From the NCBI RefSeq assembly GCF_026210795.1, contig NC_089438.1, positions 2,935,501 to 2,999,500 on the forward strand: a DNA stretch of 64,000 nt. Direction: 5' to 3'. Within the stretch, counting starts at the first letter, position 1. Every line of letters begins with the position of its first letter. The notes under the pieces were generated by a model that was not told the DNA's origin, made no database searches, and saw only the letters and a program-made list of their open reading frames with translations. Of this stretch, positions 667 through 4,850 are shown in pieces. The DNA comes from Rhizophagus irregularis (Eukaryota; Glomeromycota; Glomeromycetes; Glomerales; Glomeraceae). The position numbers and the translations under genes are program-made.

Positions 667-2897
667 CTGCATCTTTAATATTAGTCACTTCTGTATAAAT
701 TATTAAAAATAGAAAATTACTATTTATATAACTTTAATTGTTAATAATTAATAATCTTTACCAGTTTACCTTGTAAATCAGTACTATAATCATTATCTTG
801 AACATCTTGATCATTTTGAACATCTTGAACATCTTGAATTTCGCCTAATAATTAATCAATATACAATTAATGTAATAAATACTACACTGTAAGTACTGTA
901 AGTGAAATAATTTAAATAAATCATTAACTGCATTGATATTCTAGCAGACATTATTATTGCAAGTTATACTTTTTTGTTATATATTCTAACCTTGCATATC
1001 ATTATCTTCATATCTGATATCTCGGAAGCCTTGAATACCTCTCATTCTTCCTAATCTAACTAGTGTATTTAAAACTTCATAAATAGTTGGTCTTATATCT
1101 GGATCATCATCCCAACATAATTTATATAATTTCAAGTATTCATCAGGTGTACAAGGTACTGGTTCTTCTCTAAGACCATTTATTAAATCAATTATTAAAA
1201 GATTTCCACTAATAATTTTATCGGTAAAAGGTGGTCTACCACTAGATAGTTCCCATATAAGAACTCCTAAACTATAAATATCAGACTTTTCATTGTATTC
1301 ATACAAATAATTCTCTAATCGTTTAGGATCAATATATGGAATTGACCCAAATACACCCGAATAAAGATCCGCTTGAGTTTCTGTAGTTTTTGCAATACCA
1401 AGATCAATAATCTTAGCTTCTCCGCGATGTATCACTATATTTCCAGAGTGTAAATCTCGATGAAGAATATTTTCTCCTTGAAGATATTTTATCCCTTCAG
1501 TAATTTGATAAGCCAATTTTATTTTATCATCCCAAGTTAATTCTAAAAACTTTTGTTTAAGATATTGCCGTAAATTTCCACTATCAGCATATTGCATTAT
1601 GAGTAAAATCTCTTTCGTACTTTCATCTGCAATAAAAGATAAGACAATAAATATTAATATATATATATTATAAGTAATAACAATATTGAAATTATATTTG
1701 GTTTACCTAAACTTACGCCTAATATGCGTATTATCCTTTGACAAAAGTCTAATCTTCTATGCATTTCTAATAAATGAAGAAATGCTTCAATTGGTTTATT
1801 ACTGATTGATTCATTATCTATTAATTTTTTACAAATGACATAATTATTTGTTCTTTTCCATATAGCTCTTGAAATAATGCCAATATGGCTATCAATATTT
1901 TTTACATCTGATAACTCATCTATATTAATAATTTTAATCAATTTATGTTTCTCTATTAAATTAATCAATTGTGATGCTGAATTTTTGCTCATTTCTTCTA
2001 ATTTATTATATACTTGAATAATTGATGGCCTTTCATTTGGTTCATAATTCCAACATGATTTATATAAATTTAAGTATTCAATGGGAGTGCCGGAAATCGG
2101 AATTTCTCTATAACCACCTATTATGTAACTTTTTGAAATATTTTCAGTTTCAGGAGGATAACCACTAGATAGTTCCCACATAAGAACTCCTAAACCATAA
2201 ATATCTGACTTCTTATCAAATTGATAAGAATGAGTTTCAAAAAGGTTAGGATCAATATATGAAATCATTTCATAATCATTCTCTGTATTTTTTACAATAT
2301 TAAGCATAATTTTAGCCTCTTTTTCATGTACTACTATATTTTTATAGCACAAATTTTGATGAGTAATATCTAAATCATGTAGAAATTTTACTCCTTCAGT
2401 AATTTGATATGCTAACTTTATTTTATCATCCCAAGTTAATCCTGAAAAATGCTGTTTAATATATGTGCGTAAATTCCCACCATCTGCATATTCCATTATG
2501 AGAAAATATTCTTTTGTGATTTCATCTGTAAATAAACAATGAAAATTAATTATCGTAAATATAGTAATACGAATTTAAAATTAAATAAGATTACCTAAAG
2601 TAACACCGAATATACATATTATTCTTGGACATATTCTATGCATTTTTAATTCATAAAGCAAATCTTTGATAGATTTATTAGTGATTAATTCATTATTCTT
2701 TAATCTTTTACAAATTACAAATTTATTTGTTTTTTTCCATATAGCTTTCGAAATATTACCAATATTTTCCATATTTAATAATTCGCTCATTTTAATTAAT
2801 TTAATTATATCGCCATTTATAATGGCATTAATCAGTTTTAATGGATCTAAAATTTTTTTATTTGGTAAAATCCGCTCAATCACATTAACATTTTGAC
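667..2897 (-). CDS. Tandem pseudokinase-kinase module (TKL-type), probably the 3' part of the adjacent Zn2Cys6-kinase gene
   Basis: Exons that fit by phase are 2897-2595, 2525-1707, 1626-991, 844-770 and 690-667. Exon 1 holds an N-lobe (degenerate Gly loop IGNISKAIWKKT, beta3 lysine in VICKRL). The second exon completes that domain and adds a second N-lobe (VICKKL). The third exon holds the second C-lobe. Both domains are split by an intron at the same place and phase, after GVTL or GVSL and before DE-TKE. In domain 1 HRD reads HQN and the DFG site reads MLN, so it should be inactive. Domain 2 keeps HRDLHSGN and has DLG for DFG, so it may be active. The tail carries QDV-type repeats. The donor at 990 is GTTAGA, a weaker match than the others. 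The first exon has no ATG of its own at the expected place. It can begin at acceptor 2898 in phase with the upstream kinase exon, or at acceptor 2950. R. irregularis-type TKL kinases are the closest family I know. Confidence 0.75.
770..844 (-). repeat. Coding tandem repeat giving a QDV-rich tail
   Basis: A 9-12 bp unit around TTCAAGATG is repeated four to five times and is read as Gln-Asp-Val or Gln-Asn-Asp. The stretch has an acceptor (TTAG) at 845, a donor (GTAAAC) at 769, and phase 1 at both ends, so it works as an exon of the kinase gene. Length variation between strains would keep the reading frame if units are lost in threes of bases. Confidence 0.55.
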
Positions 2898-2965
2898 CTT
2901 GAAAATCATCAGATATATTTTGATATTTAGTTAGAAAAATTCGGAATAACTGATAAGTAAATTAG

Positions 2966-3152
2966 TGAATTATCGCCGTTTTCAAAATGATGTATTCAGT
3001 TAAATTGAATAAAAAAAAAAGAAAACCGAAAACCGGACGAAAACCGGACGAAATATGGACAAAAAACGGACGAAAACCGGGCGAATATTGGTATTCGAAT
3101 ATACAATCACAAATAAATTGCGTATACTATTTTGAAAACGGCGATAAATTCA
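2966..3152. mobile_element. 187-bp MITE inside the probable joining intron
   Basis: The ends are inverted copies of about 27 bp with the core TTATCGCCGTTTTCAAAAT (left arm 2966-2996, right arm 3125-3152). The interior contains a short GC-richer array of the unit CGGACGAAAAC. There is no coding capacity. It lies wholly between the donor at 3192 and the acceptor at 2898. Removing it leaves an intron of about 108 bp, normal for this locus. The target duplication is not clear. Confidence 0.7.
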
Positions 3153-3192
3153 TAATTACTTAAGAAAAATATAAAATAAATAAATAAGTTAC

Positions 3193-4850
3193 CTATGCTT
3201 AATATACTTGATTGTACCACAGATACTTGTTTTTGTGAGCATAAACTACTCCCAGATCCTATATTGTTTAGCATAGTAATATCTGAACCTACCGATAAAT
3301 CCACATTTACATCTATGGTTTCTTCATTCGATCTTGGAATTGATTTAATTTCTTTTAATGAATTACTTCCTTCATTATTGTTAATATCATCAAAGTGTGT
3401 ATCATTTTGTTCAGGAATAACTAAAGCTTTAAGAGTCGAAACAACGACTTGCATATTTGGACGTTCATATGGTTCGTATTTCCAACATTCTGTTTAAATA
3501 AATCAAATATTTTTATATTTTAACGTTAACTTAAGCAATAATTAAATAATAGAAATATTTATTACCTGTATATAATTTACTATATTCAGCAGGTGTTTCG
3601 TCAATAATTTCTTCTCTTTTTCCATTTATTATTGATAAGGCTAAATTTACGTCATAGTTATTACCAAATGGTTGATATCCACTAGAAATTTGCCACATTA
3701 GAACGCCAACGCCATATACATCAGACTTCTTATTTAATTTATAATTATTATCACCTAGTCTTTTTGGATCAGTGTAAGGTATCGATCCAAATATTTTTAA
3801 ATTAATACTTGATGCAGCGATTTTTTTTGATAAACCAAAATCTGCCAACTTTATCTTTTTCTGATGTATAAATACGTTATCAGCATGCTATTTTAATAAA
3901 ATAAAGAGAGTTTAATACTGATTATATAAGATCAACATTAAAAAATAAGAACATTTTAATTGTTACCAGATCACAATGAATAATATTACATTCGTGTATA
4001 CACGCTACTGCACTGGCCAATTGCAATGCTAACTGGTATTTGTCATCCCAACTGAGATTATTAAAATGATGACTTAAATAAGTCCTTAATGTGCCGCTAT
4101 CAGCATATTCCAAAACTAATACGTATTGAATTATATCTAAATATGCATTAAGCAAAATTTATGTTCATTAAAAAGTACTTTAATAATATATATATTATTA
4201 CATGTAAAGTCTTACTAGGATTTTTCACTGTTGTGATTCCATGAAATCGTAAAATATTTTCATGAAAATCCACTCTTTTTTGTAATTTTATCTGTAAAAG
4301 AATTTAATTAGTAAAAGTTAAAAATATTTATCAAAATCATTTATAAATTTAATACCTCATTAACAACTTCTTTCAGTTTTGTCTTATCTCTATTGAAGCT
4401 TTTTAAAGCAAAAACTTGACCCGTATTTTTCCAAAAAGCACGATAGACGCTTCCAAATGAACCTTTTCCTATCAATGTTTCGTTTTTAAATTCTGAATAT
4501 TTATAATCTGCAATTTGTTCATTGGAAATTGATAGTTCTAACCAATCTGCATAATCATTCTTTTTCAAAAATTTATAATCATCGTCTTCTTTTTCGTTTA
4601 AATTAATATGAACCATTTCTGAATTGGATTGTGTTTCCGATAAAGTATTTTCCAGAATTTCACTAGTTTTTTCAATTTGATAATTTTTCTTTGAACTTTT
4701 ACCATAAATACATGTTCCAACATCGCAATTTGAACAAGGAACATCATTTTCAGCATTTCCATCACATTCGATTTTCAATTGCCTACATTTTTGACAAGCT
4801 TTTCTTATAGGTCGACTAGTAGCGGAAGAAGATGAGGGAACTTCTGACAT
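3193..4850 (-). CDS. Zn2Cys6-like cluster fused to a protein kinase
   Basis: Phase-consistent exons are 4850-4356, 4291-4216, 4136-3967, 3887-3566 and 3489-3193. I chose the ATG at 4850 (MSEVPSSSS) because the frame upstream to the ATG at 4913 is a poly-T/poly-A stretch. Residues 19-47 read C-x2-C-x6-C-x9-C-x2-C-x4-C with [16 protein letters not shown], which resembles the fungal binuclear zinc cluster; the last spacing (4) is shorter than usual. The kinase domain starts near residue 123: Gly loop GKGSFGSV, beta3 lysine K150 (FALKSF), HCDLHADN in place of HRD-x5-N, intact DFG (LADFGLSKK), and ERPNMQ at the end of the C-lobe. So it is a probable active kinase without the HRD arginine. After the domain comes a Ser/Asn/Glu-rich linker. 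The exon at 3193 can splice to 2950 (early stop) or to 2898 (reading on into the tandem kinase module). The gene fusion could also be two genes. Confidence 0.8.

Follow-up and report, generated by a model that had tools for sequence, protein, structure and literature searches.

A candidate chimeric gene with a zinc cluster, a kinase, a pseudokinase and a kinase-like domain in Rhizophagus irregularis

Do a Zn2Cys6-like zinc cluster and three kinase-type domains that lie in a row in the genome of Rhizophagus irregularis belong to one gene or to two? Kinases and Sel1 families are described as expanded in this fungus in PMC8647823, and kinase expansion is also described in PMC10234402. Here we analysed a window, the whole stretch of 64,000 nucleotides at C10:2935501-2999500, against a genome whose 32 contigs total 146.7 Mb. 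Every feature of the locus is carried by the minus strand.

A zinc cluster and a kinase share one open frame in exon 1

4886-4893, minus strand: TATAAATA box, beginning 43 bases 5' of the start codon ATG
4356-4850, minus strand: exon 1, a single open frame of 165 aa with the ATG, the zinc cluster, a linker and the start of kinase domain K1
4710-4796, minus strand: Zn2Cys6-like cluster, C-x2-C-x6-C-x9-C-x2-C-x4-C, residues 19-47
3413-4496, minus strand: kinase domain K1, exons 1-5, with Gly loop, ALK, helix-C Glu, HCD and DFG all present

Because the zinc cluster and the kinase N-lobe are read in one open frame within exon 1, their fusion does not depend on any splice inference and is solid at the level of DNA. 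The similarity of the exon 1 product to an ORF on C24 extends to residue 91, and kinase relatives mostly start to match it at residues 86-102, which places the joint of the fusion within this exon. A single-sequence fold prediction of exon 1 had a mean pLDDT of 33.5, too low to be informative.

The zinc cluster has the six cysteines in canonical order with the CxxC pairs that define PF00172. It scored 20.2 bits against the Zn_clus profile (E 0.00066), under the curated cut-off of 21 bits, and was absent from the results of the genome-wide PF00172 search, which leaves the Zn2Cys6 cluster proposed in an earlier note on this DNA not fully confirmed. Within the genome it is most similar to the C24 ORF (52% identity over the aligned N-terminus) and to an ORF on C32 (39%), both of which exceed the cut-off (21.8 and 26.8 bits, respectively). 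All six cysteines, among 28 invariant columns of the alignment, are common to the three sequences, as is the short last spacing x4; the residue before the third cysteine is Glu in the window copy and Lys in both relatives. With phmmer, the closest solved chain was the Leu3 DNA-binding domain (2er8; E 0.0011). The cluster resembles fungal Zn2Cys6 regulators of the Leu3 type in its six ordered cysteines and CRxxK core, but it differs from them in its last spacing and sub-threshold score, and a kinase takes the place of the regulator body.

We checked about 1.9 to 2.4 kb downstream of the cluster at 28 further zinc-cluster loci (all 27 PF00172 matches in the genome and the C24 locus) and found no kinase within about 2 kb. 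The window's own cluster escaped the PF00172 search, so divergent zinc-cluster kinases elsewhere in the genome may have escaped it too. A zinc-cluster kinase was likewise not found in the titles and abstract openings of the literature searched, including that on Zn2Cys6 and kinases in R. irregularis.

K1 scored 159 bits in Pfam (the best of Pkinase and PK_Tyr_Ser-Thr) and retains the Gly loop, Lys, helix-C Glu, HxD and DFG motifs of an active kinase, so that activity is predicted. It is up to 79% identical to other kinases of this genome and grouped with eight rows of K1-type kinases in our tree (support 98/99); this tree omits L010, which is the L027 gene again, and rows with scores below 550, and it drew a long-branch warning from the tool that included the L023 branch. 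What follows the kinase differs among these relatives: L012 stops directly after its tail, as does L013 unless it is spliced, L027 reads on into a Sel1-like repeat exon, and L014 and L015 carry LRR-like repeats (both kinds of repeat seen by eye). Change of partner behind K1 is thus common among the relatives seen. The window gene shares with the expanded R. irregularis kinases its close K1 relatives, of which L027 has the Sel1-like exon, but it carries a zinc cluster in front and tandem kinases behind, with no Sel1-like tail seen. Two further divergent kinase matches lie on the minus strand of the window, at 10235-10867 and 27670-28555.

The tandem module and its relatives

2595-2897, minus strand: exon 6, where the tandem module begins, with in-frame alternative starts at 2949 (donor 3217) or 2846 (donor 3192)
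1972-2760, minus strand: K2 pseudokinase; Lys retained, HRD replaced by HQN, DFG lost
1043-1971, minus strand: K3 kinase-like domain; Lys, HRD and DLG retained, Leu in the helix-C Glu column, Gly loop mostly lost

The three kinase domains proposed in the earlier note were clear in the Pfam scan, in which K2 (110 bits) and K3 (134 bits), scored in the same way as K1, likewise exceeded the cut-offs, which places all three in the protein kinase superfamily. K2 is a pseudokinase by its aligned columns, where HQN and LNI mark the loss of the catalytic Asp and of DFG. In K3, Leu occupies the helix-C column that holds Glu in all ten other rows labelled K3; with this residue and most of the Gly loop gone, activity is doubtful. 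The order zinc cluster, kinase, pseudokinase, kinase-like domain is present on one strand, although calling K3 an active kinase exceeds what the sequence allows. In the tree, K2 grouped with the middle pseudokinases (5 rows alongside; support 96/88) and K3 with the last kinases (6 rows; 98/98).

Exons 6 to 8 (E6-E8) comprise 585 codons, none of them a stop. In neutral simulations, 22 stops were expected with 0.18 changes per site, which is half the nearest dS, and 3.2 with 0.02 changes per site, where 3% of 500 runs were stop-free. Branch N/S, computed on columns conserved among the other rows and hence biased low, was 0.31 for K3 (0.15-0.47 in nine others) and 0.55 for K2, the highest of five rows (0.17-0.40 in the other four). 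The stop-free frame and these ratios indicate that translation of the tandem module persisted through most of its history; a change in recent time is possible.

We compared the module with 11 related blocks outside the window, on C10 and C8 (L017-L024, L026 and L057, with two blocks in L022); this count refers to fetched loci and leaves aside weaker tandem-looking matches such as C3:1853k, C4:751k and C8:3982k. In eight of the 11, another kinase precedes the block within one shared open frame. At seven loci (L017, L018, L020, L021, L022, L024 and L026) this is a kinase designated Kd, just upstream. In L023 (109-4171, or C10:2918608-2922670), whose gene ends about 13 kb from the window gene, it is a K1-type kinase with HRN in place of HRD, and the open frame of its last exon continues without a stop into a second kinase domain, which a third follows; elsewhere this copy is broken by one frameshift and one TAA. 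L057 has a Kd kinase with broken frames. The remaining two blocks, L019 and L022 5775-6707, are beheaded, with no upstream kinase match within the locus, and the latter has an in-frame ATG just upstream. By eye, a short tandem repeat fills the region 5' of the beheaded L019 block (about 2400-3600; C10:2863400-2864600). Elsewhere, the minus strand of C8:3128302-3135513 carries open frames of 2,504 and 2,252 aa with tandem kinase matches and many Sel1 repeats.

Splice sites at the junction and at the 3' end

3193-3489, minus strand: exon 5, which completes K1 and adds a tail; phase-1 donor GTAACT at 3192
2960-3157, no strand assigned: MITE-like element in the presumed intron, with inverted ends; the coordinates mark the outer edges of its arms
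2898-2914, minus strand: 17-base word ATCTGATGAYTTTCAAG, ending at the 2898 acceptor
986-988, minus strand: TAG stop codon, reached if intron 8 (donor GTTAGA at 990) stays
653-844, minus strand: possible tail exons 844-770 and 690-653, with TAA at 655-653, in a layout that resembles the tails of related genes

As the earlier note described, exon 5 closes at 3193 in phase 1 and, after an intron of 295 bp, an AG ahead of 2897 takes up the E6 frame, again in phase 1. The arguments that it drew from this join for splicing proved weak. We scored splice sites with a matrix of 48 reference introns, six from the window itself, from which introns over 110 bases and duplicates were excluded. The acceptor TTTTCAAG at 2898 (AAG) scored -2.0 bits, below all 48 reference acceptors (leave-one-out minimum -1.5); A at -3 occurs in two of the 48, and among the 298 minus-strand AGs in the first 6.5 kb, 23% have at least this score. 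The 3192 donor scored 6.6 bits, with lower scores in 15% of the 48 leave-one-out reference donors. The match of phase, taken as support for the splice, was dropped as evidence because an open in-frame join is given by 39 of 124 GT/AG pairs, which is chance level. Nor does the module lack an ATG of its own, as in-frame ATGs are found at 2790 and 2772. Two other in-frame joins score higher at the acceptor: exon 6 may start at 2846 with donor 3192 kept (+2.4 bits, near the 5th percentile) or at 2949 (+1.7 bits) with donor 3217 (+5.3 bits). The case for the exact 3193/2897 junction is weak and the acceptor is unsettled; a join through some acceptor is better supported.

The word that ends at the 2898 acceptor has two copies in the 146.7 Mb, the other lying only in the K1'-K2' linker of L023, and both read SDDFQ in the module frame. 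A rough calculation by hand, using base composition, puts the chance expectation at about 0.1 copies genome-wide, for a word chosen after the fact. This shared word suggests that coding sequence in the E6 frame once reached further in the 5' direction, following a K1-type kinase, and the 2898 acceptor may sit in that former coding sequence. DNA similarity to Kd-type relatives begins near 2865 (LPNKK) in three of nine matches, those reaching that far. We rejected an ancestral donor shared by 3192 and L027, as the alignment puts the L027 donor about 40 bases upstream.

The arms of the element (2960-3007 and 3110-3157) are 75% complementary. It had been called a MITE of 187 bp; it is a repeat with inverted ends and 39 other scored copies at 83-98% identity (40 of 101 first-look candidates were scored, the window's own included), and alignments of the longer copies cover about 180 bases. 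Set against a dS of 0.36 or more between the window K3 and every other K3, this identity makes the insertion look young beside the module. Without the element the intron would measure roughly 97-115 bases, and the reference introns measure 60-94 in a set cut at 110.

The gene was earlier thought to end at 667. Its last exon, followed to the stop, takes the gene to 653; if intron 8 (window 845-990) is unspliced, an in-frame TAG comes immediately and the end is 988-986. The donor of this intron is GTTAGA, where L017, L019, L021 and one L022 copy have GTAAGA; since T at +3 occurs in none of the 48 reference introns, the protein may end at TAG 988-986. The product of one gene may thus be about 1,040 aa (TAG 988-986) to 1,076 aa (stop 655-653).

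One gene or two

We favour, at a probability of roughly 0.58, a single chimeric gene with the zinc cluster, K1, K2 and K3. Three sources would have contributed to it: the start of a Zn2Cys6 regulator-like gene, with relatives on C24 and C32; a kinase of the K1 class, whose members end in different partners, fused to that start inside exon 1; and the pseudokinase-kinase end of the local tandem-kinase family, most other members of which have Kd in K1's place. The K1 part would have been joined to the tandem module through an intron that the MITE entered later. Comparative evidence favours this reading even though phase, acceptor and missing ATG each failed to carry it: K1, K2 and K3 fall into three clades, of K1-type kinases, middle pseudokinases and last kinases; Kd runs in frame into the next kinase at seven loci, and a K1-type kinase does so in L023; the acceptor and the L023 linker share ATCTGATGAYTTTCAAG in the module frame; and the module is stop-free with constrained N/S. 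Against it stand the 2898 acceptor and the chance-level frame match, the two beheaded blocks among 11, the stops after the tail in L012 and, unless spliced, L013, the misaligned L027 donor, the raised N/S of K2, and ATGs from which a separate K2-K3 protein with the whole K2 core could start.

These ATGs, at 2790 and 2772, are central to a realistic, if minority, possibility, namely that of two neighbouring genes, in which zinc cluster-K1 ends in or before the MITE and K2-K3 starts separately. The unspliced exon 5 frame continues for 27 codons to a TGA at 3109-3107, within the element, an AATAAA word lies at 2862, L012 ends after this same tail, and one beheaded block, that of L022, has its own in-frame ATG. 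The two halves are, however, about 400 bases apart, of which roughly 180-200 are element; the AATAAA, ATTAAA and TATAAA words between them fall inside the E6 frame; and that frame 5' of ATG 2790 matches L018, L024 and L026, where it is internal coding sequence. It is improbable, in our judgement, that the K2-K3 module was recently beheaded and is becoming a pseudogene while zinc cluster-K1 alone works. Beheaded (L019, one L022 block) and broken (L023, L057) copies do occur in the same stretch of C10, and the loss of the K3 helix-C Glu and the raised N/S of K2 are consistent with decay, but 585 stop-free codons would be rare even at 0.02 neutral changes per site. We give equally little credence to a hollow zinc-cluster resemblance, in which a Cys-rich N-terminus would have lost its binding to zinc or DNA: the sub-threshold score and the Glu before the third cysteine are compatible with it, whereas the cysteines shared with two ORFs that pass Zn_clus, and the match to Leu3, argue against it.

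Single chains with kinase and pseudokinase or tandem kinases are also known from plant tandem kinase proteins (Yr15, Pm24 and Lr9). Compared by architecture, the window gene differs from these in kingdom, in its zinc cluster and in having three kinase-type domains. In Janus kinases, a pseudokinase immediately precedes a kinase, as K2 directly precedes K3; the Pfam scan of the window gene contained no FERM or SH2 domain. Plant tandem kinase proteins descend from plant receptor-like kinase families.

In a single chimeric protein, the zinc cluster would direct the chain to DNA or to the nucleus and might mediate pairing, K1 would be the catalytic kinase, K2 a non-catalytic regulatory or docking domain, and K3 a degenerate kinase-like partner. 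It is a tentative idea, possible though doubtful, that the zinc-cluster domain brings the kinase, pseudokinase and kinase-like domain to chromatin as a single sequence-addressed kinase, put together from a regulator gene, a solo kinase gene and a tandem-kinase array, the intron being the final joint. Kinases normally act on zinc-cluster regulators; if the two are fused here, a DNA address and a kinase would lie on the same chain. The locus would then capture an expanded kinase repertoire in the course of building new architectures, by swapping what precedes and what follows the kinase domain, with relatives of all three donors persisting in the same genome.
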